The notes beneath the pieces are model-generated. The model ran no database searches and was not told where the DNA came from. It worked only from the letters and a program-made list of their open reading frames with translations. From Deltaproteobacteria bacterium (GTDB lineage: Bacteria; Myxococcota; UBA796; SXON01): a DNA stretch of 20,950 nt. Below are positions 2 to 17,870 of the stretch, one piece after another. The stretch lies in NCBI GenBank assembly GCA_947483545.1, contig CANKNP010000042.1, positions 1-20,950 on the forward strand. Direction: 5' to 3'. Numbering within the stretch: position 1 is the first letter of the stretch; every line of letters starts with the position of its first letter. The translations under genes were made by a program, and so were the position numbers.

Positions 2-523
2 ATCAGCCGGACGCGGATGCAGCAGATCGCGGAGACGATCTCAGGGGTCGAGCAGCCCGCGAGCCTCTCAGCGATCCAAGCGGAGATCGACGCGCAGATC
101 GAGCGCGAGGGCCTCCAAGAGCTGATCCGCACGGACTTGAACGATGACGGCCTGCGCCTCTCGCTGAACTCCGGCCTCGTCTTCGACTCGGGCAGCGGCA
201 CCATCCGCGCAGAACAGGAGCCCACCGTAGACCGTATGCTGCAGACGCTGGTGCCCTACGCGGGCCAGTACGGCTTCGCGGTCGAGGGCCACACGGACAG
301 CACCCCGGTGGTCAGCGGCGGGGCCTACGCGTCGAACTGGGAGCTCTCCGCCGATCGCGCCAACGCGGTGCGCTCGCACCTCGAAGGGGTGGGCGTAGAG
401 CAGAAGAACATCCGCGTCGAGGGCTACGCGGACACCGTACCCTTGAAAGAAGAGAGCCTGACCGGGCTCACCCCCGAGGAGCGCCTCGCCCGTCACCGGC
501 GCGTGGTCGTGAGGATCTACTGA
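2..523 (+). CDS. MotB/OmpA-type peptidoglycan-binding motor protein, 5'-truncated by the window edge
   Basis: The C-terminal ~110 residues form an OmpA/MotB peptidoglycan-binding domain. Visible hallmarks are VEGHTDSTPV, then NWELSADRANAVRSHLEGVG, then IRVEGYADTVPL, and the closing HRRVVVRIY. The long interval between GHTDS and the RA motif, containing NWELS, is the MotB style rather than plain OmpA. MotB proteins have an N-terminal transmembrane helix carrying the ion-binding Asp. No such helix lies within the window, and the frame stays open to base 2, so the ATG at 17 is probably internal and the true start is upstream. The stop overlaps the next start by one base (TGATG at 521-525). By family knowledge it would anchor an ion-driven stator to the cell wall, and a MotA-like partner would be expected just upstream. 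It could instead belong to a non-flagellar motor, since no flagellar gene is visible. Confidence 0.85.
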   Translation: MSRTRMQQIAETISGVEQPASLSAIQAEIDAQIEREGLQELIRTDLNDDGLRLSLNSGLVFDSGSGTIRAEQEPTVDRMLQTLVPYAGQYGFAVEGHTDSTPVVSGGAYASNWELSADRANAVRSHLEGVGVEQKNIRVEGYADTVPLKEESLTGLTPEERLARHRRVVVRIY

Positions 524-2322
524 TGAAAGCTCTTGTTCTCCTCGTCGGTCTGGCGTACGCGGCCCCCGCCGTCCCCACGCGGCAGATCCCCCCTGAGGTG
601 CTCGTGGAGCTGCAGCTCCTGGAGAACCGCTTTGAGGTGGCGCTGGCCACCGACTGCGATTCGGGCCTGTGCTACTCGAAGGGCTGCGTGTGGCTCGATC
701 ACGCCGTCGCGGACCGGCCACGCGCAAGCTCGATGCCGGGGCTCGGCGCGGAACCGGGGCCCAGCGCCGGCGACGCGCAGCAGTACCTGACCCAGGTGCA
801 GTGTTCCTTCGCGAACGAGAGGGCGCTGCCCAACGCCACCGCCCAAGCGCTGGTGCGACGCCTCCAGACCCGACTCACGCGCGGGTGGACGGTGGTGACG
901 GTGGACCACGAGGTGCTCCCACCCCTGGTCGCCGAGGTCCCCGTAGAGGTCGAGCCAGAGGCCGAACCGGAGCCTCCGCCGCCACCCCCCGCGCCTGTGG
1001 CGTGGACCGCCGCGGACGCCGTCCACGAACTGTGGAACACGCTGCTGCCAGACTTCTTCTGGATGATCGGCCTGGGGCTCGTCACCTTCGCCGCGACCCT
1101 GCTGATCTGGGCATGGCGTCGGGTCGGTCGGGCCTCGGTCGAAGAACAGGCGCTGCTGGCTGAGCTGCAGCAACCCGAACCCCCTCCGCCCGCTCCAACG
1201 CCGGTCAGCGCCGAAACCACCGTCGAGGAGGAGGACCGTGCGTTCGTGGCAGCGCAAGAGGCCAACTGGAAGGCCACGCTGCAGGCCATGGATCCCGCAC
1301 GCCCCGACCCCCAGCTTCAGGCCCTCGTCCGCGAGCGGCTCCGCGCGGGGGACCTCCCGCTCCTGGCCAAGGCCGTGCTCCGGTTCCCCGACCACTTCCC
1401 CGCGATCTTCCCCAACGACGGCGAGACCGCCACCGCCAAGCTGGAGCTCGCCGAGCTCCTCCAGAACGTGGACGCCGCGACCCTGCCCGGCGATGTCGCG
1501 TTCTTCACGGCGCTCCAACGGCACGCGCTCGCGGCGACCCTGACCTCGCAGCCCGACGCCCGCATCGTACGCAGCCTTCGCGAAGACTTCGGCGCGGCGG
1601 GGCTTGTGGAGCTCATCAACCAGCTGCCTGCCCGGATCGGCGCGCTCCTGTTCGCCTTGAGTCCGCCCTCGGAGCAGCACGAGATGGTCCGTCTGCTCGC
1701 CGTGCCGCAAGCAGCGGGGCTCTGCCACCAACTGCTCCGCTCCAACCGGATGGATCCCAGCGAGACCCGGGCCCTCTTCGAGGTGCTCCGCGGTACCCGG
1801 GGCGAAGGGGTCGGCGCGCCGGTTGCGCCCACCGGGCCCGCCAGCGAGATCACCGATCGCGGCGTGACCTTCGATGCGGCGGGTGCCGTGTCCGTGCTGC
1901 TCTCGAGCCTGCCCGCCCAGGATCGCGTGGAGCTTTTCGACGACGCCCTCCGCCGCACCCATGGCAGCCTCCCCGCATGGACCCGCGGCATCCTCACGGC
2001 CGACATGCTCTTCACGCTGTCTCGCGAGGCGCGGGCAGACCTGCTGTTGGAGCTCGACACCGAACCTCTCGCGGCCTGGCTCTCCCTCGTCGATTCGGAC
2101 GCCCGAGCACGCCTGCTGGAGGGGCTACCCGACTCGCTGCGCGTCTCGATCCAGGCGGCATCGGTGTTCCCGTCGCGGACCCGCCAACTCAGCCTGGCAG
2201 GCCGAGGCCGACGGGAGCTGGCCCGGGGCCTTCAGGGGCAGCTCGCCCGGGCCCGGATCCCCTTCGAACGTGCGGTTGGCAGCGACGCGGTCGCCCCCAT
2301 CGACGACCCAGCGGAAGCGTGA
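523..2322 (+). CDS. Membrane-anchored FliG-like protein with an N-terminal periplasmic domain
   Basis: 599 aa. Residues 1-14 are a signal peptide-like segment. Residues 15-140 form a predicted periplasmic domain with four cysteines near 45, 50, 55 and 94. A Pro/Glu linker follows, then a transmembrane helix around 178-198 (MIGLGLVTFAATLLIWAW) and a second proline-rich linker. From about 250 to 585 the sequence is all-helical and reads like FliG middle and C-terminal domains. Examples are GAVSVLLSSLPAQDRVELF (compare FliG AAEILNLL...), ILTADMLFTLSREARADLLL (the MF.FEDL region) and LELDTEPLAAWLSLVDSDAR (the REVD..LA.AL torque helix region). Canonical FliG is about 330-350 aa, soluble and cytoplasmic, so the added periplasmic domain and helix are unusual. 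ATG 523 overlaps the upstream stop, implying translational coupling to the MotB-like gene. The FliG assignment is by eye. An unrelated ARM-like helical repeat is the main alternative. Confidence 0.68.
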   Translation: MKALVLLVGLAYAAPAVPTRQIPPEVLVELQLLENRFEVALATDCDSGLCYSKGCVWLDHAVADRPRASSMPGLGAEPGPSAGDAQQYLTQVQCSFANERALPNATAQALVRRLQTRLTRGWTVVTVDHEVLPPLVAEVPVEVEPEAEPEPPPPPPAPVAWTAADAVHELWNTLLPDFFWMIGLGLVTFAATLLIWAWRRVGRASVEEQALLAELQQPEPPPPAPTPVSAETTVEEEDRAFVAAQEANWKATLQAMDPARPDPQLQALVRERLRAGDLPLLAKAVLRFPDHFPAIFPNDGETATAKLELAELLQNVDAATLPGDVAFFTALQRHALAATLTSQPDARIVRSLREDFGAAGLVELINQLPARIGALLFALSPPSEQHEMVRLLAVPQAAGLCHQLLRSNRMDPSETRALFEVLRGTRGEGVGAPVAPTGPASEITDRGVTFDAAGAVSVLLSSLPAQDRVELFDDALRRTHGSLPAWTRGILTADMLFTLSREARADLLLELDTEPLAAWLSLVDSDARARLLEGLPDSLRVSIQAASVFPSRTRQLSLAGRGRRELARGLQGQLARARIPFERAVGSDAVAPIDDPAEA

Positions 2323-4466
2323 TGCCGCGCGCCCTTGTTCTGCGCCTCAGGTGCGCCCGCCTTGTTCCGCGCCTCAGGTGCGCCCGCCTTGTTTCGCGCC
2401 TCAGGTGCGCCCGCCTTGTTCCGCGCCTTGCCCTTGCGCTCTTGGCCGCGTCGTGCTCCAAGGTCGGCATCTACGACGTGGCTGCGGGGTTCACTCAGGC
2501 CGATGTCTCCTGGTTCGCCGAGGAAGAGACGCTGTTCATCTTCTACCGTGTTGAAGCTGCGCAGGGCCTCGGAGATCCAAGCGTCATCGACATCACCTAC
2601 AACACCGATGACGAGTGGGTGGACTGGACGCCGCTCACCGACCTCGCACCCGTACACACCCACCTGCCGGTGGACTGCGGCGCGACGAGCATGTGTGGCA
2701 GCATGAGCCTGCACGTACCGAAAGAGCCGCGCCAGGTGCAACTCCGGCTGCGGTACCACCGCGACGGGGAGCTGGCGCTGGACGCGGACACGGTGTTCAA
2801 CGTGGTCGGCGTCGGGGATCCCTGGTCCAACCGCAGCTACATCGTCTACGGCGTGCTCGATGCGTTGAACGAACGGGTGCAGTGGCGTGGCAGGCACCAG
2901 TTCCCCACGCTCCGAAATGAAGACGCATCGGAGCTTGGCCTGAGGCGCGACCTCCGCATCGCGGACGAGGCGTACGGCACAGCCACGTTTGCCACCCCCG
3001 ACAACCCGTACGGATACGGGGTGGACTGCCCCACCGATTTCGAGGCCACCGGCCTGCCCCAAGTGGAGACGAACGAGCGCGCCGTGTTTGACGCCGAGGA
3101 TCTGCCGATCGAGGCCTCGGACGCCTCGACGATCTGCGCGCAGGCCACGGTGACGGACGCCACCGGCACCTTCACCACGGCCGCCATCGCGCGGAAGAAC
3201 CCCGAGGTGCGCGCGGCTTTTCCAGAGCTTCGGAGCCCGATCCGCGAGGCGACACCGCTGCAGTTCTTCCTGGAGCCCTGCGACCGCGTCATCTCCGCCG
3301 AGCATGAGGCGATGCAGAGGCAGCGCTTGCAGCTGGGAAACCTCGCCTCTATCTGCACCGACGACTGGGAGTCCCCCGGGTTCCGCGACGAGCTGGTGAC
3401 CGCCTTCAGCGACGCGGTCGAGGCCGCGCGCCCCGACGGCGAGGACATGCTCCTGGTCGTTGGCATCCACCAGGACGAGGAGGGGATGGCCGAGCTCGTG
3501 GAAGACGCCCTGGCCGAGGTCGTGCCCGAGGAGCGTCTCCAGGCCTCCCCCCGCTTGGCAGGCGCGTTCGTGTTCGACAGCGATGGCGCCGGGCTGACGC
3601 TGCCCGAGATCGAGCCATCGACGCTGTGGTGCCCGACCACCGTGTTCGAGGACGACGAGGAGCTCCCCAGCAACGCGAACCTCACCTGCGCGATCGCGCC
3701 GGACAACCCCGATCTCGTGCTCGGCCCGATCAGCTTCGGCGTGCTGCCGATCCTGCCGTCGCGAGCTCAGTACCTCGACTTCATCGACACCTACTCCGAT
3801 GCCCAGGCGGGCGAGGTCACGTCGCTCAGCTTTCGCACCCCCGAGTTCTCCACCACGGCCGATCACATCCAGGTGGGCGACTATGGCGTTGCCACCTTCC
3901 TGAACGACGAGCTGATCACGCCGGACGCGGACGACGCCTTCTCCTATTGCATCACCGAGGAGCCCTACGTCTTCGTGTTCCGTTCGGAGTTCATGCAGAC
4001 CGAACAGTTCGAGCGGCTGGTCTGGCGGGGTTGCAGAGACGGTTCGATCTCTGCGGATTTCTGCGCCTATGCCGGACTCGGGATCCTGCCGATTGAGCTC
4101 CTGCCACAGTGGCACCAGATCTTCGGCGAAACGAGCTACGAGCTCGGGCTCGGTTGGGACTTCCCGTTCCTGCTGCACATGGAGTACGAGACCTCCGCGG
4201 CCGGGTCGGTGACCGCCTTCGGGCTCTCCGTCCCGTTCGGCATCGCCACCAACGGCGAGTCCTACCTCGCCACCTCGATGTGGACGACGGAGACCTTCTC
4301 CCTGGAGGAGGCGCTCACCCAGTGCACGCGGTTCTGCGACCACCCCACCTTCGACTCCGCGGGGGTGTACCAGGTGACCGCCACGTTCCGGTTCACCTAC
4401 CCCAACTCCTGCTACCTTCCCGAGTTTCCAGAGCTCGGAGACTCGGGGTTCCCCCTTGATCCGTAG
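2322..4466 (+). CDS. Large secreted lipoprotein of unknown function
   Basis: 714 aa from the ATG that overlaps the upstream stop (TGATG at 2320-2324). The N-terminus is a lipoprotein signal: a long Arg-rich n-region (residues 1-36) built from a 9-residue repeat, a short hydrophobic core (LALALLAAS) and the lipobox cysteine at residue 45. The mature part has about 15 scattered cysteines, many acidic residues and predicted beta segments. I recognise no domain. Segments such as MLLVVGIHQDEEGMAELVEDAL (near residue 380) look like an alpha/beta fold. Placed between a FliG-like motor protein and predicted outer-membrane barrels, it may be an envelope component of the same machine. The last ~20 residues run into the repeat element that starts at the stop codon, so the C-terminus may have been altered by its insertion. 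Confidence 0.8.
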   Translation: MPRALVLRLRCARLVPRLRCARLVSRLRCARLVPRLALALLAASCSKVGIYDVAAGFTQADVSWFAEEETLFIFYRVEAAQGLGDPSVIDITYNTDDEWVDWTPLTDLAPVHTHLPVDCGATSMCGSMSLHVPKEPRQVQLRLRYHRDGELALDADTVFNVVGVGDPWSNRSYIVYGVLDALNERVQWRGRHQFPTLRNEDASELGLRRDLRIADEAYGTATFATPDNPYGYGVDCPTDFEATGLPQVETNERAVFDAEDLPIEASDASTICAQATVTDATGTFTTAAIARKNPEVRAAFPELRSPIREATPLQFFLEPCDRVISAEHEAMQRQRLQLGNLASICTDDWESPGFRDELVTAFSDAVEAARPDGEDMLLVVGIHQDEEGMAELVEDALAEVVPEERLQASPRLAGAFVFDSDGAGLTLPEIEPSTLWCPTTVFEDDEELPSNANLTCAIAPDNPDLVLGPISFGVLPILPSRAQYLDFIDTYSDAQAGEVTSLSFRTPEFSTTADHIQVGDYGVATFLNDELITPDADDAFSYCITEEPYVFVFRSEFMQTEQFERLVWRGCRDGSISADFCAYAGLGILPIELLPQWHQIFGETSYELGLGWDFPFLLHMEYETSAAGSVTAFGLSVPFGIATNGESYLATSMWTTETFSLEEALTQCTRFCDHPTFDSAGVYQVTATFRFTYPNSCYLPEFPELGDSGFPLDP
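2330..2424 (+). repeat. 27-bp in-frame minisatellite encoding the signal peptide n-region
   Basis: Three full 27-bp units lie at 2344-2370, 2371-2397 and 2398-2424, preceded by a half unit at 2330-2343. Each begins GCCTCAGGTGCGCCCGCCTT. The only difference seen between full units is one C/T change in unit 2 (a Pro to Ser codon). Each unit encodes RCARLVPRL or RCARLVSRL, so copy-number change keeps the reading frame and simply lengthens the Arg-rich n-region ahead of the lipobox. Confidence 0.95.
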
Positions 4467-4658
4467 CGTTCGCGACTCTGGGTTGCCCACGCTCCCAACA
4501 AGGGGGCGACTTCGCATCTTCCCTCCCCCCACCGGGGGGAGGTGCCCGAAGGGCGGAGGGGGGTTCGTGAACATCCCCGCGGAACATCAACTCTCCCCTC
4601 CGTGTCCTCCGCGTCCTCTGTGGTGGTCCTCTGCCTCGCTTGGCACTGGCGAGGCTCG
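4467..4658. repeat. Palindromic, REP-like intergenic repeat element inside the operon
   Basis: This is the only sizeable gap in an otherwise overlapping operon. It holds a perfect 9-bp hairpin (4522-4530 with 4534-4542, loop ACC) followed at once by a GCCC-GAA-GGGC hairpin (4544-4554). It then carries a CTCCGTGTCCTCCGCGTCC / CTCTGTGGTGGTCCTCTG block at about 4596-4635. From memory, both the CCTCCCCCC..GGGGGGAGG hairpin and the 'cctcCGTGTCCTCTGTGG' string recur between genes in many unrelated bacterial genomes. The latter is what makes spurious TTEDAEDTE peptides on the reverse strand. No transposase is present, so it is either non-autonomous or an old insertion. Confidence 0.6.
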
Positions 4659-5447
4659 GTGACCCCCGCAACCCTCCTCCTCCTCGCCCTGACCCCCGCC
4701 TTCGCCGCGGAGCCCGTCCCGACCGAAGACGCGCCCGTCGACGATCCATTGGCGAAGCATCGTACGCCGTTCCCGGAGCTCGCTGAGCGGACGATCGGCA
4801 CCGCTTCGCAGCCCGTGGAGTTCAACTGGCGGCGTTCGACGGCCCAAGTGGCGATCACCGGGGACCAACTGTACGAGCTCAACAACTTCAACAGCCTCCG
4901 CGTCGGCCTTCTGGGCCGATTCCCGAGCGGAAACCTGATGGTCGAGCTCGGCGCGAGCTACGTCTGGACCTGGGACACCCCCAGCAGCGAGCTCCTCGCC
5001 CTCACGCCGTATCGGCAACCCGGGCGCCCGGACCGTATGGAGATCGACTTCAACGTCGGGCTCCCACTGGCCGAGGGCGTCGTGACCCTGGCGCCACGCT
5101 TCCTGCCCGCCCTCCAACTCGTCCTCAACGGCTACGTGGGCCTCCGCTATCTGTTGTACCCCGACGGCTTCGCGGGTATGAAGGCCGGCAAGGTGGTCAG
5201 CTCCATCTTTGCACCTGCGCTCAGCCAGGACGAGATCGACAACCTCGACGACCGCCGACTCGATGCGATGAAGGTGGACTCTGGGCGCTACGGGCTCCTG
5301 GTCGACATCGGGAACGACCTGTACTTCAAGCAAGGGTTCTTCCTCTCTCCCCGCGTCATGTTCGCTGTGCCGCTCCTCGCGCCCGTCAACGACACCGACT
5401 TGCTCCTTTGGGGCGACTTCTCCCTCGCCATCGGGTTGGCCCGATAG
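4659..5447 (+). CDS. Predicted outer-membrane beta-barrel protein
   Basis: 262 aa from GTG 4659. Reading further upstream to 4542 would translate the repeat element, so I reject that start. The GTG start gives a clean signal peptide (TPATLLLLALTPAFA, cleavage before AEPVP), with a GAGG stretch a few bases upstream as a weak ribosome binding site. The mature protein has alternating hydrophobic/polar strands such as LRVGLLGRFPSGNLMVELGASYVW, RMEIDFNVGLPLAEGVVTLAPRF, YFKQGFFLSPRVMFAVPLL and LLWGDFSLAIGL. These are typical of a small outer-membrane barrel, although the final residue is Arg rather than the usual aromatic. No named family is recognised. Its stop TAG overlaps the next start (TAGTG at 5445-5449). 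It may be the outer-membrane anchor of the block 1 machine. Confidence 0.72.
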   Translation: MTPATLLLLALTPAFAAEPVPTEDAPVDDPLAKHRTPFPELAERTIGTASQPVEFNWRRSTAQVAITGDQLYELNNFNSLRVGLLGRFPSGNLMVELGASYVWTWDTPSSELLALTPYRQPGRPDRMEIDFNVGLPLAEGVVTLAPRFLPALQLVLNGYVGLRYLLYPDGFAGMKAGKVVSSIFAPALSQDEIDNLDDRRLDAMKVDSGRYGLLVDIGNDLYFKQGFFLSPRVMFAVPLLAPVNDTDLLLWGDFSLAIGLAR

Positions 5448-7360
5448 TGCTCACACCCTGGCTGCTGCTCGTCGCCCTGGCCCTCGCCGGGCCCGAGCGC
5501 GAGCCGTCGGACGCTACCGTCGTGTACTACAACGCGCGCATGGCCCTGCGCGAGGGGCGCCCCCTTGAGGCGGTCCAACTCTGGCTCCTCCGCAACGCAA
5601 TGGAGAACCAGGACGGCCGGGTGTCCCCACACGACGCCGACTTCCGCTCCGTCACCTGGGCCGCCCTTGGGGAGCTCGGGATCTGCCAGGACGGGTACGC
5701 GAAGGACTTGGACGGCGCCGGGTTGTGGCCCCTCGCGCTGCACAACCAGGTGGTGCGTAACTTGGGCCGGAGAAAGCCGGCAAAGCGCCATCGACCGTTC
5801 GCTGCTTTTGAGGTGAATCGCCAGCAGCGATACGTCTCGATCACGGATGTGCTCGGCTCCCGGGAGTTGGCGACGCTGAAGCTCTCGCGCGGCCGGTGCG
5901 CGCGCCCGCGTCTCGCGCTCCTGGCCGCCGGCGAGTCCCTGACCGCCAAGCTCACGGATCGCCAGGTCGCGGCCCGACTACTCCGGTTCCTGCTGGAGCG
6001 GGCGCGGTCCACCTTGGCCGAGGGGCGGGTCCACGGCCTGGCAGCCATCGACGCGCGGCTCTTCGACATCGACCTGCAGCTCACCGCGCTGGCCGCCAAA
6101 GAGGCTCGAAAGGAAGCCCAGGCAGAGGCTCGGCGGGGACGCGAGGTCGGCCTGACCCGTCCATCGGTCACGGCGATGCGGGATGAGGCGCCGACCACCA
6201 CGCTGGACCCTGGCTCCGTGGCCGCCCGCGTGCTGCGCGCTTGCGTGTCCTGGCCAACGGCCGAGTGGATGGCCCTCTCGCCCGACCGCCGCCTCTACCT
6301 CTTCTCCCAGGCGCGGGCCTATGGTGAGGATCCGGTCGCGTTCGAGGCGGTGGGCTTCGGCATCGTCGATCAGCTCCTCGCGAGCGGGCAAGGTGCAGAG
6401 GCGGAGGCCTGGATCGGACAGCTCGCCGCCGCCGGAGGACCGGAGACCCGCAGGGCTACCTGGGAGGGGAGCCGGGGGCAGGCGCTGTTGGCCCTCGACG
6501 AGGATGCTGGATTCAACGAGCGCTCCGTCATCGCGCTTCACCGCGGGATTGACCAGCTTGAGCGTGGCCAGCTGATGGACGCACTCCGGTCCATCGCCTT
6601 CGCGAGGCAGCACGCCCACGCATCCGCGACCGCAGGCGAGCTGGAAGGCCTGAGCCTGCGGTGGCTATCGTACGTCGCCGCCCAGTTTTCCATCAGCCCG
6701 GGGCTGCTCGTGACCCTGCAGGAGCTGGTCCCGCGCCAGGACTACGCGATCATCCTGGAAGATCTGATGTGGAGCGCGGCGTTCCATGCGGACAAGCGCT
6801 CGTTCGACGATGGCTTTGCCCACCAGGTGCGGCGCGGCGCGCTGGAGCGGCGGCTTGTACTCCTGGCCCCGCTCGCGGCGGGTGACGTCGCCCGGTTCGC
6901 CGCCGGGATCCAAGCCGGTCTCGTCGATTCTCCAGATGAGACCCTGCGTTTCCTCGACCAGATGGTCCAGCGCCTGGAGCTGGAGGACGCAGGCGTGCGC
7001 ACGGCGCAGCTCGGCACGCTTGGCAGCCTGCGCAAGCTCCTCACACCCTTCGCTGCTGCCGCGCAAGACACGGGCCGCCAAGGCAGGACGGCCGCGCTCC
7101 TGATGGCGCGAACCCAGGCGATCGCGGAGGGTCTGGGTGGCCTGTCCGAGACGAGCGAACGGGATCGGGCTCGGTCGCTGGCGCCTGATGGAGAGGTCTA
7201 CGCGGGCAGTATCCGCCTCGCACCTGCGGATCCCCTTCCCTGGCCCTTCCACGCCTCGGACCCCTCCGCCCCGTCGGTGTTTACGCCGCTGGAGCTTCGA
7301 CCCGAGGAATGGCGCGATGCCTCCGCCGAGCTGGTGTTCGGCTGGAGCATCCGCGGGTGA
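5447..7360 (+). CDS. Large secreted alpha-helical (TPR-like) protein of unknown function
   Basis: 637 aa from GTG 5447, which overlaps the upstream stop and gives a signal peptide (LTPWLLLVALALAGPE). An earlier in-frame TTG at 5408 lies inside the upstream gene and has no signal peptide. The protein is helical and alanine/leucine-rich, with TPR-like pairs such as YYNARMALREGRPLEAVQLW near the N-terminus and IDQLERGQLMDALRSIAFAR mid-protein. A charged segment around residues 205-240 (KEARKEAQAEARRGREV) may be a coiled coil. The C-terminal ~60 residues are proline-rich and end in a short beta-like segment (SAELVFGWSIRG). It would act in the periplasm or on the surface. Position between two barrel-type genes suggests a scaffold role, by inference only. 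Confidence 0.78.
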   Translation: MLTPWLLLVALALAGPEREPSDATVVYYNARMALREGRPLEAVQLWLLRNAMENQDGRVSPHDADFRSVTWAALGELGICQDGYAKDLDGAGLWPLALHNQVVRNLGRRKPAKRHRPFAAFEVNRQQRYVSITDVLGSRELATLKLSRGRCARPRLALLAAGESLTAKLTDRQVAARLLRFLLERARSTLAEGRVHGLAAIDARLFDIDLQLTALAAKEARKEAQAEARRGREVGLTRPSVTAMRDEAPTTTLDPGSVAARVLRACVSWPTAEWMALSPDRRLYLFSQARAYGEDPVAFEAVGFGIVDQLLASGQGAEAEAWIGQLAAAGGPETRRATWEGSRGQALLALDEDAGFNERSVIALHRGIDQLERGQLMDALRSIAFARQHAHASATAGELEGLSLRWLSYVAAQFSISPGLLVTLQELVPRQDYAIILEDLMWSAAFHADKRSFDDGFAHQVRRGALERRLVLLAPLAAGDVARFAAGIQAGLVDSPDETLRFLDQMVQRLELEDAGVRTAQLGTLGSLRKLLTPFAAAAQDTGRQGRTAALLMARTQAIAEGLGGLSETSERDRARSLAPDGEVYAGSIRLAPADPLPWPFHASDPSAPSVFTPLELRPEEWRDASAELVFGWSIRG

Positions 7361-7950
7361 ATCCCACGCGTGCCCAGGCGATCGCTGCCAGACGGAAGGC
7401 GCTTTCAGCGCAGGTCGCCCGGAGACGCCAGCGCCCGGGCAAGGACGAGCGACCTCGCCGGAAGTGGCTCCTGCTCCTTCTGCTGCTCCTGCTGCTCCTC
7501 CTCCTCTGCCTGCGATGCGGATGCGTGCAGCCAGCGCCGTTGGCCTTGCCGACGTTGCCGGAGGCGTCGATAGCCACCCCTGCCCCGGCCCCGCCCGAGC
7601 CCCCACCCAGTCGGGTCCCGCGTCGGGATCGTCCGCGCTTCAAGATCACAGCACCGGAGCCCTTGCCCTGGCTCGCCTCGTTCCGTCTGCAGGTCGCCGC
7701 GCGCAGCCCCCGCCTGGCCGAGTGCTTCACGGGGGTCACCCGCCCCGGCGCGCTCAAGTGGACCGCGGCGGTGGAGCCGGTCCACGGGCTGGTGTCCGAC
7801 CAGGTGCTCGAGCCCACGCTCCAAAGCGACGATTTGAACCGCACCCAGCGCGCGTGTGTCCTCGGGGTGCTCGCCGATCCGCCCTACAAGCTCGACGCCG
7901 GGGAGTCACCCTCCACGCCATCGAAGATCGGGATGGTGATTGAGTTCTGA
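7357..7950 (+). CDS. Single-pass inner-membrane protein with an AgmX/PglI-like C-terminal domain
   Basis: 197 aa. GTG 7357 overlaps the upstream TGA (GTGA at 7357-7360). The N-terminal ~36 residues are very basic and cytoplasmic (AARRKAL..VARRRQRPGKDERPRRK). A transmembrane helix follows, made almost entirely of leucine (13 consecutive Leu codons, 7468-7506) and ending LRCGC. Then comes a Pro/Ala linker and a periplasmic domain from about residue 105. That domain carries LAECFTG...LKWTAAVEP.HGLVSD and, near the end, RACVLGVLADPPYKL. Two cysteines flanking a beta-rich core, with a final hydrophobic/aromatic strand, match the AgmX/PglI C-terminal (TonB-C-like) pattern. In Myxococcus such domains occur in gliding proteins spanning the periplasm. 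The domain call is by eye and moderate in certainty. A generic TonB-like protein is the alternative. Confidence 0.7.
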   Translation: MNPTRAQAIAARRKALSAQVARRRQRPGKDERPRRKWLLLLLLLLLLLLLCLRCGCVQPAPLALPTLPEASIATPAPAPPEPPPSRVPRRDRPRFKITAPEPLPWLASFRLQVAARSPRLAECFTGVTRPGALKWTAAVEPVHGLVSDQVLEPTLQSDDLNRTQRACVLGVLADPPYKLDAGESPSTPSKIGMVIEF

Positions 7951-8731: not shown

Positions 8732-9310
8732 TCACGATGGCCCCGAGGCCGCTCGCTCCCCAAAGAACCCCGCCGCTGCCACGACCGCCTCGGCGTCCCC
8801 TTCGACGACCCCGGGCGCACCGCCCCGCCCGTGCAGCGCCCCGCCCCAGCGCATGTTCAGGAATTCCGCGCACAGTCGCACGGTGTCGATGAGCGGCTGA
8901 GCGCGCTCGCGATCCCCGCTGGTCGTGACCAGCCACAGCGTTTTTTCCGCCATCGACGCGCGGAAGGGCACATCCGGCACCCGCATCCACGCGCTCCAGT
9001 GCTCCAGGTAGGTCTTGAGCGAGGCGGGTAGGCTGTACCAGTAGACCGGGGCCACAAAAACGAGGTCCGTCGCGGACAGCGTGGCGTCGAGGAGCAGCGC
9101 GAGGTCTCCCTCCGGCGCCGGATAGCTGCCGATGGTGTGACGCTGGTCCACGAAGGGAGGAAGGTTCAAGCTGGCTAAATGGTGCCAGGCCTGGGGTACG
9201 GAGGTTGGCAGGGCGGCCGCCGCGCGCCTCGCGAGCCACTCGGTGTTCCCGAGGTGACCGGGGGCCCGGACCGAGGCCACGAAGAACGAGAACGCGCGAG
9301 GATCAGCCAT
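8732..9310 (-). CDS. NAD(P)H-dependent FMN reductase / flavodoxin-fold oxidoreductase
   Basis: 192 aa from ATG 9310. The N-terminal FFVASVRAPGHLGNTEWLAR is the flavodoxin-type phosphate-binding loop (S.R..GNT) after the first beta strand. Mid-protein LVFVAPVYWYSLPASLKTYL is the P.YWY..PA.LK signature of the NADPH-dependent FMN reductase/KefF-MdaB group, and TLWLVTTSGD follows as the next strand. Size agrees with this family. By family it uses FMN and NAD(P)H to reduce flavin or quinone-like substrates in the cytosol; the substrate cannot be read from sequence. The tail (GRGGAPGVVEGDAEAVVAAAGFF) is glycine/alanine-rich. It is divergent from the kinase gene with about 50 bp between them and convergent with block 1, so it appears to be a single-gene unit. 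No clear promoter was found. Confidence 0.85.
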   Translation of the reverse strand: MADPRAFSFFVASVRAPGHLGNTEWLARRAAAALPTSVPQAWHHLASLNLPPFVDQRHTIGSYPAPEGDLALLLDATLSATDLVFVAPVYWYSLPASLKTYLEHWSAWMRVPDVPFRASMAEKTLWLVTTSGDRERAQPLIDTVRLCAEFLNMRWGGALHGRGGAPGVVEGDAEAVVAAAGFFGERAASGPS

Positions 9311-9361
9311 CGGGCGCGCTTATGCCGCTCGGCTTGCCACGCCGAACGCGCGGGTGCTACG

Positions 9362-11017
9362 TTGCAACGCGAGAGATCTCCCCTGGACGCTGCGCCGCCG
9401 CTCGCTGAAGGTCGATACAAGCTCCGCGCCATCCTCGGCGAGGGGGGCATGGCCATCGTGTACCGCGCGCATGACACGCGGCTGGACGTGGAGAGGGCGA
9501 TCAAGGTGCTGGCGCCGCGGTTTGCGGCCCGACCGGAGATCCGGGCGCGGTTCGAGGCGGAGGCGCGCACCATGGCGAAGCTCCACCACCCGCACATCCT
9601 GGGTGTTCACGATGTCGGGCACGACGGGGACCGCGTGTTCATCGTCATGGAGCTGCTGGAGGCCGGCAGCCTCGTGGATGTCCTGAGAGAGGATGGTCCG
9701 CTCGATGTCCTTGATGCTTGCGATGGTGTGCTCCAGATCCTCTCGGCGTTGAAGCTCGCGCACAGCCGTGGCATCGTGCATCGCGACATCAAGCCGCACA
9801 ACGTGTTGATCGGGCCAGAAGGTCAGTTCAAGCTCGCAGACTTCGGGATCGCCCACGTCACGGAGGCGGACCGTGCGGTGACCGGCACCGGCATGGCGAT
9901 GGGCACGCTCGGGTACATGGCGCCGGAGCAACAGACGAACGCGAAGATGGTGGATGGACGGGCCGATTTGTACTCCGTCGCAGCGACGATGTACGCGCTG
10001 CTCAAGAGCCGGGAGCCGTTCGAGCTACACGCGGCCGACCACCAGGACGAGCTGTTCGCCGGGCTCCCGAGCCCCATCGTCCGGCTGTTGAAGGGCGCGT
10101 TGCGCCGTCGGCCAGACGATCGTTACCCGGACGCCGACGCGATGATGGCGGCCGTGCGCGCAGCGAGAGAGCAACTTGTACCACCCAAGTCTGGCGCCTC
10201 GGCGCCGCAGGCCGGGCCGGGTCGGGAGCTGGAGCTCTCCTCGCACACGTTCGCTGTCGCGCGGACCGGCCCGCCCGCGTTTGGCGTCCCGGAGCCCGAC
10301 AGGACCGAGGAGAGCGGACGATTTCCGAAGCTCGCTTCCGTGCCCAACGGGCTCCAGGGCACGTTGCCTGGCCAGAAGCCGGCCGACCCGGAGGGTGGCT
10401 GGACCTCTCTGCGGCTGTGGGGCGGGATCGGCGCCGCGCTGGTGATCCTCTGCATCCTCGGCCTGAGCAACCTCTCGACCGGCGAGGTCCCGGTCCCGCC
10501 GCCCGTGACGGTGGCCAAAATCGACGTTCCGGCCAAGGTCGAAGCTCCAGAGCCCGAGACCTCCGTCGCGCCGATACCGGACGTGCCCATCGTGCCGCCA
10601 AAGGTCGACGTGGTGGTGGAGATCGAGGACCCAAAGCCGAAGACGAAGACGCGGGTGATCCGCCCCCCCGAGCCGGTGGTAGTCGCCGTCTTGGCAGAGG
10701 TGCCGATCGACCCGAGCGCGTTGACGGATCCGACGGCGATCCAACAGATGGCAGCGAGCGTGCTCGGCCGGACGTTGCCGCAGGTCGGAGCCTGCGCGGA
10801 GAGGCGGCGGGAATCCAACCCCCAGTGGAGCGGGCGCTGGGAGCTCACGCTCACGGTGCTGCCTCAAGGGATCGCGACCGGCGTGACCGTCAAAGCGCTC
10901 GACGCCCCAGACGCCGTGTTCGAAGGCTGCGTGATGGGAAAGGCCGAGAAGTGGCCGTTCAAGACGATCTCGGTGGCGACGGTGGTGACGCGGACGTATT
11001 CGTTTGCGGCGCCGTAG
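9362..11017 (+). CDS. Transmembrane Ser/Thr protein kinase with an AgmX-like periplasmic C-terminal domain
   Basis: About 551 aa. Residues 18-300 form a Hanks-type kinase with all catalytic elements: glycine loop GEGGMAIVYRAHD, ATP-anchoring Lys48 in AIKVL, catalytic HRDIKPHNVL (Asp142), metal-binding DFG (Asp160) and activation-loop end GTLGYMAPEQ. A juxtamembrane linker precedes one helix near 352-372 (IGAALVILCILGLSNL), then a Val/Pro/Lys-rich periplasmic linker. The last ~90 residues (VGACAERRRESNPQWSG...FEGCVMGKAEKWPF) resemble the AgmX/PglI C-terminal domain. The start is uncertain: TTG 9362 is the only usual start codon in frame after the divergent flavoprotein gene begins, and a CTG at 9383 has a GAGAG upstream. 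Translation from 9179 would overlap the flavoprotein gene and looks non-coding. It may sense an envelope state and phosphorylate cytosolic targets. Confidence 0.93.
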   Translation: MQRERSPLDAAPPLAEGRYKLRAILGEGGMAIVYRAHDTRLDVERAIKVLAPRFAARPEIRARFEAEARTMAKLHHPHILGVHDVGHDGDRVFIVMELLEAGSLVDVLREDGPLDVLDACDGVLQILSALKLAHSRGIVHRDIKPHNVLIGPEGQFKLADFGIAHVTEADRAVTGTGMAMGTLGYMAPEQQTNAKMVDGRADLYSVAATMYALLKSREPFELHAADHQDELFAGLPSPIVRLLKGALRRRPDDRYPDADAMMAAVRAAREQLVPPKSGASAPQAGPGRELELSSHTFAVARTGPPAFGVPEPDRTEESGRFPKLASVPNGLQGTLPGQKPADPEGGWTSLRLWGGIGAALVILCILGLSNLSTGEVPVPPPVTVAKIDVPAKVEAPEPETSVAPIPDVPIVPPKVDVVVEIEDPKPKTKTRVIRPPEPVVVAVLAEVPIDPSALTDPTAIQQMAASVLGRTLPQVGACAERRRESNPQWSGRWELTLTVLPQGIATGVTVKALDAPDAVFEGCVMGKAEKWPFKTISVATVVTRTYSFAAP

Positions 11018-11067
11018 GGCCGCCGCCTTCCACCTGGAACGGTGCGGTTAGGGGCCCGCCCGGCTCC
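11017..11067. repeat. Copy 1 of a 51-bp dispersed element filling a convergent intergenic gap; possible terminator
   Basis: It matches 17469-17519 without gaps at 43 of 51 positions, including an identical 20-bp core TTCCACCTGGAACGGTGCGG (11028-11047). It can fold as a hairpin with arms CGCC-TTCC (11024-11031) and GGAA-C-GGTG (one bulge, one G-U pair) around loop ACCT. It runs from the last base of the kinase stop to the outermost base of the DUF1501 gene stop, so it may serve both genes as a terminator. Confidence 0.7.
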
Positions 11068-12335
11068 TACCCCTCGCTCAACGCCCCCGTCACCACCCCA
11101 ACCCCCGCCAGATACTCCTCGGAATCCACCCCCGCGACCGTGAGCAGCGTGGCGCCGAACACATCCGCGCTCAAGCTCTCGCCGTTCTCTTCGTCGATCT
11201 CCCCGGTCTCCAAGTCGATATTTTTCCCATAATAATAGGAGTCCAAACCGCCGATGACCCGCCCCCCGGTCACCCCGGGCCCGACGACCATCGCTGAGGT
11301 GTACGGCCAATGGTCTTTCCCCGCCCCCGCGTTGAGCTGTGGCGTGCGGCCCATCTCGGAGAGCACGACCACCACGGTCTCGTCCAGCAGCGTCTCTTCG
11401 GTCTCGCCGGGCAGGGCCTTGAGCGCGTCGAACAGGTCGAGCAAGCCTTGGAACAACATCTCGAAGTTGGTCGATTGGGTCACATCGTTGTTGATGTGGG
11501 AGTCCCACCCCAGGTAGTCAAACTGGGTGGTGACGCAGCGCGTGACGCCCAAGGAGAGCAAATCCACGGCGAAATTGGCCTGCTCCTGGAAGCTGGCGCT
11601 GGCGCTCCAATCCACGACGCTGCCAAGGCCCTTGAGGGTGGCGGCGCGGTCCAAAGCGCCCTGGTAGGCGATCGACTGGGCCGCCTGACTCCCCGCATTG
11701 GCGGCCGCAGCGTAGGCATCCACGCGACGCTGCATGTACGCGTCCATCAGGGCCTCGCCGCGCACGCTGGGGGCCCGCGTGGTCTGGTCGCTCCACCCGA
11801 TGATCGACCGGTCGAGCATCGCCGCGAGCTGACCCGACGTGCCCGTGCGCGTGACGTACGCGCCGAAATTGCCCGGGAACGAGGGGCCCGCCGCGATCAC
11901 CTGGGGCAACGGGTACGAGGTCCCGACAACCCCGGCAGCGATAGCACCCCAGTCAGAGCCATCCTGGCGGGTCGAGCCAGTCATCATCCATCGCAGACAA
12001 TTTTCATGCGCGACGCTGGGCGAAAGAATGCCGTTGAAAATGAGGGAGCGAGAGGCATAGCGCTCAAAAAACGTCGAGACGGCGGGCCGAAGCGCGTTGT
12101 CCACATAGGTGAGATCGCCCACCGACGCGATCTGCGAGGACCGCTCCATGTCCACCGCGACGTTGCCAAATTCGGTGGCGAAAACGCGGGTGGGATCCCA
12201 ACCCCCGTAGTTCACCACAAAGATGAACTTGCGGCGGTTGCCGGTCCCAGACGCGGCTGCCAGCGCGCGATGGACAGGCAGCGCGGTCACTGCGAGGGTG
12301 CCAGCGGAGCGGCAGAGAAAATCGCGGCGCTTCAT
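11067..12335 (-). CDS. DUF1501 family protein, Tat-exported
   Basis: 422 aa. MKRRDFLCRSAGTLAVTALP is a twin-arginine signal (RRDFL) with a cleavage region around HRALAAASG. The body has the DUF1501 pattern: FIFVVNYGGWDPTRVF near the N-terminus, TQFDYLGWDSHINND mid-protein (usual W-D-.-H) and VVVLSEMGRTPQLNAGAGKD followed by HWPYTSAMVVGPGV (usual E.GRTP..N...G.DHW). Members have an alkaline phosphatase/sulfatase-like fold with probable metal ligands among these Asp/His residues. The biochemical role is not established. It is the last gene of block 3, 34 bp after the CxxCH lipoprotein gene. DUF1501 genes are commonly paired with DUF1549/1553, DUF1800 or DUF1588-type genes in planctomycetes and myxobacteria, and this pair fits. 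ATG 12335 is supported by the signal peptide. Confidence 0.92.
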   Translation of the reverse strand: MKRRDFLCRSAGTLAVTALPVHRALAAASGTGNRRKFIFVVNYGGWDPTRVFATEFGNVAVDMERSSQIASVGDLTYVDNALRPAVSTFFERYASRSLIFNGILSPSVAHENCLRWMMTGSTRQDGSDWGAIAAGVVGTSYPLPQVIAAGPSFPGNFGAYVTRTGTSGQLAAMLDRSIIGWSDQTTRAPSVRGEALMDAYMQRRVDAYAAAANAGSQAAQSIAYQGALDRAATLKGLGSVVDWSASASFQEQANFAVDLLSLGVTRCVTTQFDYLGWDSHINNDVTQSTNFEMLFQGLLDLFDALKALPGETEETLLDETVVVVLSEMGRTPQLNAGAGKDHWPYTSAMVVGPGVTGGRVIGGLDSYYYGKNIDLETGEIDEENGESLSADVFGATLLTVAGVDSEEYLAGVGVVTGALSEG

Positions 12336-12369
12336 AGGCTCTCCGTAGGACGAGCGGGGTGGGTGGCCA

Positions 12370-13965
12370 TCAGTAGAGCAGGAATTCGGGGTCGCGCAAC
12401 AGCACGCTCAGGACGCCGGCCCAAGCCGCGGCAGGGTCGCCGTCCACGTCGTACAGGTCCGACCACAGCGCGAGGTTGGCGGCGACCTCCTCGCCATCGG
12501 CAGCGATCCGCTTGCCGAACAGCCGAAGGTGGAGGAGCTGCACCTGGGCCGCCATCGCTTCGGGGTCGCTGGTCGGGGTGGTGGTGACGCCCACCTCGGT
12601 GAACAATCGCGCTTCGCTTGGGTTGGTCCGATCTTCGTTCACAACGTACCAGGCCGCCGCCTGGGCGAGCCGCTCGTGAACGAGCACCATCGTCGCAGTG
12701 GCCTCGGAAGCCGGCCGGGTGGAGAACACCCCGTCCACACCGCCTGCGAGGGTCCGAACGCCGTACGCGTCCGTCTGCATCATGTCGAAGCCCTGGTAGG
12801 TGAACCGGAAGCCCGTGATGTCTTCGATCATCGAAGCGAGCTGGTCGGGAGAGACCAGTTTGCGGGAGGGTGCCGAGAGGGAGAGCGCCTCCTGGTACTC
12901 GGGCGTGCCGGCCGTCGCGAGGAACAACGAGCGCAACGTCTGACCGTTGGCCAGGAAGGTCTCGCGCAGCGTCGTCAACCGCTCGGTGTCGTCGAGCGTC
13001 ACGGTGCGCTGGGTCATCTTCTCGAAGACCTGCTGGGTGATGCACTCGGCGAGCTTGGGATCGGCGGCGATCTGACCGCCCAAGTCATCGAGCGTGTAGC
13101 CGGGCTGCCCGTAGTAGCCGGGCGCGACCTCTGTCGTGGTCTGCCAGGTCTCCTCACGCTCGGGGTGGTAGGAGCTGGTGTCGGACTTGCTGTTGTAGTC
13201 CACGAAGTAGAAGCCCCAGAGGTAGCTGCCGAGCGGGTCGAGGCTGTAGTGACACGCGACGCAGCCCTCGTTGGTCTTGAGCGCGTCGTTGACGGCGGCG
13301 TCATCGAGCAGGTTGACGTTTCGGTCAAAGTCGATGGGCTTCGACAGGTAGTCGGTGCACAGGAGGATGCGACTGAGGGCGTTCGCCCTGCCACGGTTGG
13401 AATTGCTGCCGTTCGATTGGTAGCGCCACCACATGCCGTTGGTGGTGAGGATGCCCGAGTGCGGCCGCCCGTCGGTGTAGGTCGAACGCTGCCAGCCTTC
13501 TGCGCCCTCGGGATAGGCGATAGGCCACGTGGTCGCCAAAAGCTCGTTCGACATGGTCCAATCTGCGGTCACGATCTGGGAGTAGGGCAGGTCCTGCTCG
13601 GCGATGGCCGAGAGGATTTGCAAGGGCTCGTCGCCCACAGAGGCGGCGAAGGTCGCCTCGTCGTCGGACCCGTAGTCGGAGGCGGTCACCGGGAAGGCGT
13701 CCTGACGGGTCAGGTAGATATCCGCGAAGAAGCTGCGTACCCGCTCGCCGAAGCGCGGATCCTGCAAGAACTCCTCGATGCGGAGGTTCACGGAGGCGGG
13801 ATCGGCCTCGACGGCTTCGACCTCGGCGATGCTCGGGCGTACGCCACGAAGGTCCAGGCTCGCGCGCTCCAACAGGGCGACGGCGCTCACGTCATACGCG
13901 CTCATGGCCTCGACGGGGTTCGGCTCCGTCGCACAAGACAGCAGGTAAAGCAGGATCAACGCCAT
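12370..13965 (-). CDS. Large CxxCH-containing lipoprotein, DUF1588/DUF1592-like partner of DUF1501
   Basis: 531 aa. The N-terminus MALILLYLLSCATEPNP is a short lipoprotein signal with lipobox Cys11. LDLRGVRPSIAEVEAV and FLQDPRFGERVRSFFADIYL near the N-terminus resemble the 'planctomycete' DUF1549/1592 opening. RPHSGILTTNGMWWRYQ...RGRANALSRILL, followed by GCVACHYSLDPLG (Cys235, Cys238, His239), matches the DUF1588-type block with a CxxCH haem-like motif. The protein closes with LLRDPEFLLY, also seen in these families. It likely sits in the periplasm or outer membrane. Haem attachment is plausible but not certain, as only one CxxCH is seen. Its start overlaps the upstream gene by 10 nt (13956-13965), implying translational coupling. 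The exact Pfam assignment needs a profile search. Confidence 0.82.
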   Translation of the reverse strand: MALILLYLLSCATEPNPVEAMSAYDVSAVALLERASLDLRGVRPSIAEVEAVEADPASVNLRIEEFLQDPRFGERVRSFFADIYLTRQDAFPVTASDYGSDDEATFAASVGDEPLQILSAIAEQDLPYSQIVTADWTMSNELLATTWPIAYPEGAEGWQRSTYTDGRPHSGILTTNGMWWRYQSNGSNSNRGRANALSRILLCTDYLSKPIDFDRNVNLLDDAAVNDALKTNEGCVACHYSLDPLGSYLWGFYFVDYNSKSDTSSYHPEREETWQTTTEVAPGYYGQPGYTLDDLGGQIAADPKLAECITQQVFEKMTQRTVTLDDTERLTTLRETFLANGQTLRSLFLATAGTPEYQEALSLSAPSRKLVSPDQLASMIEDITGFRFTYQGFDMMQTDAYGVRTLAGGVDGVFSTRPASEATATMVLVHERLAQAAAWYVVNEDRTNPSEARLFTEVGVTTTPTSDPEAMAAQVQLLHLRLFGKRIAADGEEVAANLALWSDLYDVDGDPAAAWAGVLSVLLRDPEFLLY

Positions 13966-15324: not shown

Positions 15325-17316
15325 CTACTTCACCAACAGCTCAAACACCCCGACCCAGTCCAACCCTGGGGGCGTGCGCAGAAAACCCTCGGCCCGCGCC
15401 CGAAGCGTGCGGGCGGGGCCATCCTCCGGTTGGATCGCCAGGGCCTGGTCAAAATAGGCGATCGCATCGGCAAACTGGCGATTTCGATAGACCTGCAATC
15501 CACGATCGTAGTGCGCCGCCGCCGCGAGGCGCACGGGGTCCACCGCGCCCCGCTGTCCGAGCAGCTCGTAGATGCGAACCGGGCGATTCTTGCCCTTCAC
15601 CCGGACGAGATCCACCTCCCGCGCCTCCACCACTGCCTTCGCGAGCGCCCAGGTGGCCTCGGTGATCAAGATCCGCGTGCCGTACTCTTTGTTGACCCCC
15701 TCCAGTCGTGAAGCCAGATTCACGGCATCCCCGATGACCGTGTAGTCCTGCCCCTGCTCGCCGCCGATGTTGCCGAGCACCATCTCGCCGGTGTTCACGC
15801 CAATGCGCACCGACAGGATCTCGCGCCCCCAACGAACCCGGAGCAGGTCCAACGCCTCGATGTGGTCGAGCGCGGACAAGCAGGCCGCAGCGGCGTGCTC
15901 AGGCCGCGGGATGGGCGCCCCGAAGAACGCCATCACGGCATCCCCGAGGTACTTGTCGATGGTGCCGCCCCGATGAACGATCCGGCGGCCGACCTCGGTA
16001 AAATACTCGTTGAGCAACCCGACGACCTCTTCGGGCTCCAGGGTCTCGGCGAGCGGCGTGAACCCGACCAGATCGGAGAACAGAACCGTCAACTCACGGC
16101 GTGTGCCGCCCAGAGCTTGCGCCTCGGGGTGATCGAGCAGGTAGTTCACGACTTCGGGGGCCAGATACTTCTGGAACGTATTCTTGATCCGGTCCCGCTC
16201 GCGAAGGCCCTCGGTCATGTGGTTGAACGCCTCGGCCAACCGACCGATCTCATCCTTGGACCGGACGGGGACGGTCACCCCCAGATCCCCGGCAGCCACC
16301 CGGCGTGCACCATCCTCCAGCTCGACGATGGGGCGCGTCAAGCGTTCGGCGATGACCGCCGCCAGCGCCACCGCGAGGCCGAGCGGGAGGAGCGCCGCGA
16401 TGAAAAGCAGGATCGCGGCTTCATCCAAGAGCGCGAGGCCCACGTCCAGGTTTCGAGCGACGAGCACCGTCGCGATGGGCGTACGCTCGTCCAGTCCGGT
16501 GAGCGAAAACCGCTGCACCAGCCAGCGAGCGTCGCCCGCGATCACCTCGACAGGCGGCGCGTCGTCGGCGAGCGCGAGGCCGGCTGTCCGCACCTCCCCG
16601 GGCAGGTTGCCGGCCGTCGCACCGTCGGGTCCGACCAGCGCGAGGAGCGTGCCCTTGTCCACCAGGGCGACGTCGGAGAGCAGCTCGTCCGCCGCAACGC
16701 CTTGCACGAACGCGGCCCCGGGCACGCCGCTCGGTGCGGTCGCTCGGGCGAAGACGACGAAACATCCCGACGGCGAAGGCGGCAGCGGGGCAAGCGCGAC
16801 CAGGGCCGGATGGTCCGCGCGCACGACACCGGCCGCGCGAAAACCCCGCGCGGCGTCGTAGGCTTGGGCGACCGGCGCCATGAGCATCGCGTCGCTGCCC
16901 CAGGCCGAGCCGGAAGTGCTCGCGTAGACGACGCGGCCCTTGTAGTCGGTGAGCGCAAAGAAGCCGCCGGTGGTCATGCCGGTCCAGTCCCAGGAGGCGT
17001 CGGCCAGGTCCGCGTGCAGGGTCGTGCGGCGCTCCAGATCCTGCGCCGGGCTCGCAAACCCGCTGTCCGCCTTGTCCTTGTGCGTCGCGACCCGCCGAAC
17101 GACGTCGAGAACGGCGGAAAAATCGCTGGTCGTCTCAAAGGTGCGGTAGCGTAAGCGCACCGACAGGGCGAGCTGTTCCCGCGCCGCGACGAAGGCCTGC
17201 AACGCATAAGCGTGAGCGCGATCCCGGACAATCACCACGCTCACCACCGAGGTCAGCCCGATCGCCACCAACGCGAACGCGACGAAAAACAGGAGCAAGC
17301 GGCCGCGGATGGACAC
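15325..17316 (-). CDS. Class III adenylate cyclase with extracytoplasmic sensor, HAMP and C-terminal TPR
   Basis: 663 aa from GTG 17316. A first helix (residues 5-30), an extracytoplasmic dCACHE-like sensor region (about 35-290) and a second helix (298-322) precede a HAMP linker (LTRPIVELEDGARRVAAGDL, about 326-375). The cyclase domain (about 405-575) keeps both metal-binding aspartates (Asp415 in LFSDLVGFT, Asp459 in DKYLGDAVMAFFG). It also has the adenine-selective Lys455, Thr526 in DYTVIGDAVNLASRLEG (the class IIIb substitution of Asp), Asn533 and Arg537, so it should be active on ATP. Two TPR-like helices follow near 600-650 (YDRGLQVYRNRQFADAIAYF). It would make cAMP in response to an extracytoplasmic signal. 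It lies upstream of the cytochrome/DUF1501 genes on the same strand. No convincing ribosome binding site precedes the GTG. Confidence 0.93.
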   Translation of the reverse strand: MSIRGRLLLFFVAFALVAIGLTSVVSVVIVRDRAHAYALQAFVAAREQLALSVRLRYRTFETTSDFSAVLDVVRRVATHKDKADSGFASPAQDLERRTTLHADLADASWDWTGMTTGGFFALTDYKGRVVYASTSGSAWGSDAMLMAPVAQAYDAARGFRAAGVVRADHPALVALAPLPPSPSGCFVVFARATAPSGVPGAAFVQGVAADELLSDVALVDKGTLLALVGPDGATAGNLPGEVRTAGLALADDAPPVEVIAGDARWLVQRFSLTGLDERTPIATVLVARNLDVGLALLDEAAILLFIAALLPLGLAVALAAVIAERLTRPIVELEDGARRVAAGDLGVTVPVRSKDEIGRLAEAFNHMTEGLRERDRIKNTFQKYLAPEVVNYLLDHPEAQALGGTRRELTVLFSDLVGFTPLAETLEPEEVVGLLNEYFTEVGRRIVHRGGTIDKYLGDAVMAFFGAPIPRPEHAAAACLSALDHIEALDLLRVRWGREILSVRIGVNTGEMVLGNIGGEQGQDYTVIGDAVNLASRLEGVNKEYGTRILITEATWALAKAVVEAREVDLVRVKGKNRPVRIYELLGQRGAVDPVRLAAAAHYDRGLQVYRNRQFADAIAYFDQALAIQPEDGPARTLRARAEGFLRTPPGLDWVGVFELLVK

Positions 17317-17585: not shown

Positions 17586-17870
17586 TCACCGCGCCCACAC
17601 CACCGCCCCCACGGCGACGATCACCACTGGCACCAGCGTTCGACGCAGGACTGGCTCGCTCCCACTGAACCGCAGGCAGAACGCCCCAAGCAGCAACCCC
17701 CACCACATCGCCGTACCGGCACGCCAGTAGAACCCGACGTGCTCGCTGGCGATGACCACCCGCGGATCCGGCTCCCCGAGCGCCACGCTGACGAGCCGAT
17801 GCGCCGCGTACCCGAGCACGCTCCCGTGCACGAACCCGAGCCAGCCCGCCACCCGGCCCTGAGACGTCAC
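17586..17870 (-). CDS. Small integral membrane protein of unknown function
   Basis: 94 aa from GTG 17870, which overlaps the stop of the radical SAM gene (GTGA). Longer upstream readings lie inside the radical SAM gene and are rejected. Predicted membrane segments are RVAGWLGFVHGSVLGYAAHR, WRAGTAMWWGLLLGAFCLRF and TLVPVVIVAVGAVVWA, with a soluble loop (VALGEPDPRVVIASEHVGF) between the first two. No family is recognised. As the last gene of a four-gene overlapping operon it may be a membrane partner or substrate of the radical SAM enzyme, but sequence alone does not show this. Confidence 0.7.
   Translation of the reverse strand: MTSQGRVAGWLGFVHGSVLGYAAHRLVSVALGEPDPRVVIASEHVGFYWRAGTAMWWGLLLGAFCLRFSGSEPVLRRTLVPVVIVAVGAVVWAR

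Follow-up and report, generated by a model that had tools for sequence, protein, structure and literature searches.

Can the rotor piece of a flagellar-type motor be fixed in the membrane beside its own stator, and what would such a motor drive? The question is raised by a stretch of 20,950 nucleotides from a Deltaproteobacteria bacterium (contig CANKNP010000042.1, assembly GCA_947483545.1; the whole stretch is called the window here), which opens within a MotB-like gene followed by a gene at positions 523–2322, here called the rotor-like gene. FliG is normally soluble and is mounted on a separate protein, FliF. An earlier note on this DNA had likened the cytoplasmic half of the 523–2322 product to the middle and C-terminal domains of FliG, and had proposed a non-flagellar motor in which the rotor or track piece is itself anchored in the membrane. 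The FliG fold, the gene order MotA–MotB–rotor and a set of 13 host genomes (of 27) without matches to the flagellar families searched all speak for that proposal, and we consider it reasonably probable that the locus encodes an ion-driven, flagellar-type motor that belongs to a non-flagellar envelope machine, with a natural FliF/FliG-like fusion as its rotor.

The rotor-like gene is tightly packed between its neighbours (Table 1). Its start codon (ATG 523–525) overlaps the MotB stop codon (TGA 521–523) by one base, as the earlier note had it, and a second one-base overlap joins it to the next gene (TGA 2320–2322, ATG 2322–2324). The product belongs to a real gene family: among 7,992 scored candidates, 229 proteins, including the window's own, reached E <= 1e-3 (the best 120 are listed), and the mean column identity across 36 members is 61%. 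Residues 1–19 are hydrophobic and signal-peptide-like, cysteines 45, 50, 55 and 94 of the exported part are invariant in all 51 aligned family members, and the strongest hydrophobic stretch (178–196, followed by RRVGR) marks the one clear transmembrane helix, in agreement with the signal peptide, cysteine-bearing periplasmic domain and single helix that the note had described. Structure comparison gives the periplasmic domain the topology of the third ring-building motif (RBM3) of FliF, tied with other folds including MamM; in view of this resemblance to a FliF ring-building domain, a FliF/FliG-like fusion is probably a better description of the protein than an anchored FliG.

The likeness to FliG is clearest at the level of the predicted structure. 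With the window protein as the query, the top seven PDB matches in Foldseek were either entries for FliG or chains of the C-ring that are as long as FliG (E 7e-4 for FliG versus 0.48 for MgtE). In structural comparisons with VIA, which were targeted second looks and no exhaustive search, the last domain superposed on FliG_C at 2.3 Å over 88 of 89 residues, and model residues 276–584 matched FliG residues 5–323, covering the N, M and C domains, of which the N domain alone is the least tested; the root-mean-square deviation over the full chain was 14.8–25.4 Å because the domains differ in orientation. The profile–profile comparison suggested in the earlier note, run with hhalign for the cytosolic part against a FliG profile of 15 sequences (Escherichia coli and 14 from the phylum), gave a score of 31.5 (E 0.0027), above all controls (12.4–20.7 for seven unrelated families; 14.7–16.4 for six control profiles, one reversed and five shuffled). 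Direct family and sequence searches (Pfam, NCBIfam and PDB sequences) returned no FliG for the window protein itself: Pfam called MgtE_N (E 4.9e-6, passing its cut-off), neither FliG_C nor FliG_M passed the curated cut-off, and among PDB sequences a profile search gave five matches (best E 0.12), none of them FliG. The resemblance that the note had seen is thus upheld by structure and profile comparison, and not by direct family search, and it reaches beyond the M and C domains to N.

A diverged paralogous system, which we call type 2, exists in Myxococcota. hhalign aligned the window family with type 2 (E 4e-10, 299 columns) and type 2 with FliG (E 1.4e-5, 260 columns), and the type 2 rotor passes the Pfam FliG_C cut-off (27.8 bits versus 23.3). 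Its top Foldseek match is a C-ring chain (E 5e-8), with full-length FliG (3hjl) at E 2.7e-6; its C domain superposes on FliG_C at 1.8 Å over 89 of 89 residues (VIA), and its periplasmic part matches an RBM3 (FliF) profile (E 1.4e-4, 57 columns). At the sites aligned with D288 and D289 (E. coli FliG numbering, used throughout), type 2 has Glu in 48/49 and 49/49 sequences, and at the site aligned with R281 it has Arg or Lys in 29/49. The gene order MotA–MotB–rotor was found in 12 of 12 fetched loci, which were drawn from 22 places in 20 genomes and include the query's own place. Four of six further stretches have the same order; another (L092) holds only the second half of the rotor gene, and the last (L096) gave no match.

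The rotor-like gene of the window type is likewise accompanied by stator genes. A pattern search of the genome collection matched 56 stretches, of which 37 encode relatives of the window protein; neither of the two pattern matches on viral contigs does. MotB precedes the rotor-like gene in 35 of the 37 loci, and MotA lies directly upstream of MotB in 33, which therefore have the full order, the remaining contigs ending earlier; a MotA-like gene upstream, which the note had named as something to look for, is therefore the rule among relatives, and in the window its place falls outside. The window start also truncates the MotB gene, which is a correction to the note: the best NCBIfam match of the remaining part is flagellar MotD (E 1.5e-21, below its cut-off), and the transmembrane helix with its Asp and the plug are seen in relatives. 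A complete MotB in locus L014 has both MotB_plug and OmpA (Pfam). Across relatives, the MotA_ExbB domain of MotA and the plug and OmpA domains of MotB are above Pfam cut-offs, and in NCBIfam the best-scoring families for the L014 MotA and MotB are flagellar ones, none of which reaches its equivalog cut-off. The transmembrane Asp (Asp32) is present in 33 of the 34 aligned MotB rows, counted after removal of the truncated rows L019 and L026, the exception presumably being the window's cut gene; MotA P173, T209 and P222 are kept in 33/33 relatives. Judged by these domains and residues, the stator of the cluster is of flagellar MotAB type. Family scans covered 14 window proteins, 10 of L014 and 7 of L036, L025 and L001, and among these flagellar families came from MotA and MotB only; no complete ordinary flagellar locus was found adjacent.

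Do the hosts of this module have flagella? Of 195 genomes of the phylum, a set that does not include the window's own source genome, 29 match the window family, 27 of them strongly; the weak relatives in G167 and G168 look, by eye, like MgtE proteins and were set aside. The earlier note had pointed to the genome's flagellar genes as a check, and among the 27 hosts, 13 have FliG_M and 13 have flagellin, whereas in 13 none of flagellin, FliG_M and FliF_C was matched (genome completeness is not given). These flagellin-less hosts include named Archangium and Hyalangium strains; the carriers of the module are bacteria of soil and water. Each of them has one MotB_plug match, located beside the rotor-like gene, and G002 has a second, beside type 2. 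Three hosts have FliG_C matches that were not taken as flagellar: that in G002 is the type 2 protein, and those in G003 and G001, below cut-off, are one proline-rich protein of the FliM-domain locus described below.

Starting from the gene order, the homology of the motor parts, the predicted fold and the 13 hosts negative for these flagellar families, we infer a ring, its rotation, a link to the outer membrane and a task at the surface. The MotA–MotB unit, 5:2 by analogy and held on peptidoglycan by the OmpA domain of MotB, would be the engine. The 523–2322 product would be the rotor subunit, in which one transmembrane helix joins a FliF-RBM3-like ring domain in the periplasm to a FliG N-M-C-like part, and many copies would form a ring in the inner membrane. 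MotA would push the cytosolic FliG-like C domains, and the transmembrane helix and ring domain would pass the rotation on to cluster products in the periplasm and outer membrane, which may carry out surface work such as gliding or the transport of polymers or adhesins. That this is an undescribed class of rotary machine, in which MotAB turns a ring of FliF/FliG fusions with neither flagellum nor export apparatus and torque reaches the surface through envelope partners, we hold to be an even bet.

Several results weigh against such a rotor. The hhalign probability for the match between the window family and FliG is just 11%, which makes that match, taken alone, a hint; and comparison of a FliF profile with the window family's periplasmic domain gave no sequence signal, so that the likeness to FliF is one of fold. 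At residues 545 and 546, which align with D288 and D289 of FliG, an acidic residue occurs in 0 and 1 of 51 family members, respectively, and without the acidic pair the known MotA–FliG salt bridges cannot form as such. On the stator side, MAFFT places Glu or Asp at MotA R90 in 31/33 relatives and Trp at E98 in 33/33, which, taken literally, means that the contacts are not conserved; this region of the alignment contains gaps, and hhalign aligns it differently. No FliM or FliN was found among the scanned cluster proteins, and a FliM-domain protein is present elsewhere in 13/13 flagellin-less hosts. Because such proteins occur in 135 of the 195 genomes and, where examined, in a separate locus, we did not count this one as part of the rotor system, although a role is still conceivable. 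The locus common to Hyalangium and Archangium, with a FliM-domain protein of about 480 residues (L059, 16624–18066; L078, 13696–15141), is, as we read it, probably type III secretion-like.

Given the missing acidic pair, the altered MotA contacts and a FliF likeness seen in the fold alone, the FliG-like protein may instead be a fixed partner (a docking site, a clutch or a plug-release factor) that holds a MotAB pump at an envelope complex, with the rotation of MotA or the ion flow driving the outer parts via MotB or a TonB-like protein, as proposed for Ton, Tol and Agl. Anchorage by a transmembrane helix and a periplasmic domain would suit this role, and the Agl–Glt motor is described, in the excerpts of the reviews used here, without FliG (PMC9389320, PMC9120999). 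We nevertheless find a fixed partner rather unlikely, because the match spans all three FliG domains together with a domain of the ring-building type and because type 2 retains the acidic pair. Less likely still, the cytosolic part could be an MgtE_N-type superhelix that is merely FliG-like, in a protein that regulates or senses and has nothing to do with torque. Pfam does call MgtE_N in 38 of 51 family members and FliG_C in one (E 0.0068), but Foldseek ranks FliG over MgtE, the N-M-C order of FliG is matched, the homologous type 2 passes the FliG_C cut-off, and the gene adjoins MotA–MotB wherever the contig extends. A remnant or accessory of an ordinary flagellum, such as an alternative rotor for a motor encoded elsewhere, would fit the hosts that do have FliG_M or flagellin; the 13 hosts in which flagellin, FliG_M and FliF_C are all unmatched and MotB adjoins the rotor-like gene, and conservation over the whole length, which argues against decay, make this a very improbable explanation. 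A motor with a FliF/FliG-like fusion as its rotor therefore remains the reading we prefer.

Table 1. Features of the rotor-like gene and its cluster in the window.
Feature	Position	Strand	Basis or distribution
MotB-like gene, 3' part, OmpA-type peptidoglycan-binding domain	2..523	+	Pfam OmpA, E 1e-14
Membrane-anchored FliF/FliG-like fusion protein, 599 residues	523..2322	+	
Periplasmic alpha-beta-beta-alpha-beta domain, residues 24–131, ring-building-motif topology	592..915	+	
Transmembrane helix, residues 163–202, hydrophobic core 178–196, Arg-rich C-terminal (presumably cytosolic) end	1009..1128	+	
Cytosolic FliG N-M-C-like superhelix, residues 276–584	1348..2274	+	VIA alignments to 8wiw, 8wo5 and full-length FliG 3hjl; Foldseek
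FliG_C-like domain, residues 489–579; Pfam MgtE_N match at 492–543	1987..2259	+	
g685, large predicted lipoprotein, next gene, start uncertain	2322..4466	+	Relative in 35/37 loci, other two end earlier; lipobox read from sequence
g285, probably exported, beta-rich by eye, possible outer-membrane barrel	4542..5447	+	Relative in 30/37 loci
g635, probably exported, no known family, start uncertain	5408..7360	+	Relative in 30/37 loci
Possible cluster member of uncertain status, small TonB-like protein (by eye) with one hydrophobic stretch and a proline-rich linker	7309..7950	+	

The rest of the conserved cluster consists largely of proteins outside known families (Table 1). No Pfam or NCBIfam match was found for g285, no family above cut-off for g685 or g635, and no family match for the candidate at 7309–7950, which is listed because genes of similar size follow g635 in several loci; the lipoprotein, barrel and TonB-like labels come from reading the sequences by eye. 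Further upstream in the relatives lie a TPR lipoprotein-like gene (30/37 loci) and four proteins of no known family (g320 and g400, 28/37 each; g215, 26/37; g250, 25/37). TPR repeats apart, the scanned upstream and downstream cluster proteins gave no family above cut-off. The 5' end of g685 contains 3.6 tandem copies of a 27-bp unit (2333–2428, 95% matches), coding repeats ahead of the lipobox; because the L014 relative begins without this repeat, the true start may lie downstream. L001 and L014 carry the cluster though their records are titled Bifidobacterium breve and Klebsiella pneumoniae, and are probably mislabelled metagenome-assembled genomes. Upstream proteins of type 2 or diverged loci (L058, 3413–4885; L091, L093 and L094) are weakly similar to g400 and g320, so that more than the motor may be shared. 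In L058, a TonB-like protein follows the type 2 rotor (9685–10380) and has an AgmX/PglI tail below cut-off (NCBIfam, E 0.009), a domain known from Myxococcus gliding proteins. Elsewhere in the window are a Ser/Thr kinase (9179–11017, + strand) and, on the − strand, a DUF1501 gene adjoining a DUF1549/1592/1588/1585 gene (11067–13965), a HAMP-cyclase with TPR (15325–17316) and a radical SAM protein (17867–19669).

How does the module compare with known machines? With the FliF–FliG and MotAB parts of the flagellum it shares MotA, a MotB with plug, OmpA domain and transmembrane Asp, a FliG N-M-C-like fold and, judged by topology, possibly a periplasmic domain of the ring-building type. It differs in uniting the FliF-like part and the FliG-like part on one polypeptide that has one RBM-like domain and one transmembrane helix, in having other envelope genes in its cluster, in occurring in the flagellin-, FliG_M- and FliF_C-negative hosts, and in the lack of the acidic torque pair in the window family. 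Unlike soluble FliG on its separate FliF, the window protein has a predicted signal sequence and transmembrane helix of its own, and FliF_C was matched in 0/13 flagellin-less hosts. MgtE transporters combine a CBS pair with a five-transmembrane channel domain. The window protein shares the MgtE_N superhelix with them, but neither a CBS nor a channel domain was found in it, only MgtE_N and one clear transmembrane helix; MgtE is itself described as a distant FliG homologue (PMC7355467, cited, like the other papers here, from excerpts).

Fusions of FliF and FliG have precedents. Chlamydiaceae have a natural one, from a bacterium that is not considered to be flagellated (PMC4768692), to which the window protein is alike as a natural fusion; here the parts are RBM3-like and FliG N-M-C-like, beside MotAB. 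Artificial fusions rotate or form rings (PMC4768692, PMC6079021), and the engineered Salmonella proteins have the same order of parts, indicating that a fused rotor of this kind is able to assemble and turn; unlike the window protein, they were built from the FliF and FliG of an ordinary flagellum, each complete or almost so. In myxobacteria, the AglRQS–Glt/Nfs system of Myxococcus xanthus likewise couples a MotA/MotB-like ion motor to a multi-gene envelope complex (PMC3858216, PMC9120999, PMC9389320), but AglQ and AglS are TolR-like and the excerpts describe no FliG-like partner. Outside flagella, no FliG-like partner is named in the review excerpts on 5:2 motors and on gliding in Myxococcus (PMC9389320, PMC9120999), and among the titles and abstract beginnings listed in a literature search, mostly open-access, none describes a MotA–MotB–FliF/FliG-fusion system. 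The parts are of flagellar type and their core shares homology with the flagellar motor; for their combination and setting we found no report.

In the literature as excerpted here, FliG-type rotors are otherwise tied to flagella, the Chlamydia fusion aside. If our reading is true, a stator-plus-rotor module works outside the flagellum, whether derived from it or older, and myxobacteria have a second ion-driven envelope machine besides Agl–Glt. A MotAB–FliG module in cultured Archangium and Hyalangium would make both the origin of the stator–rotor pair and its flagellum-free function directly testable.
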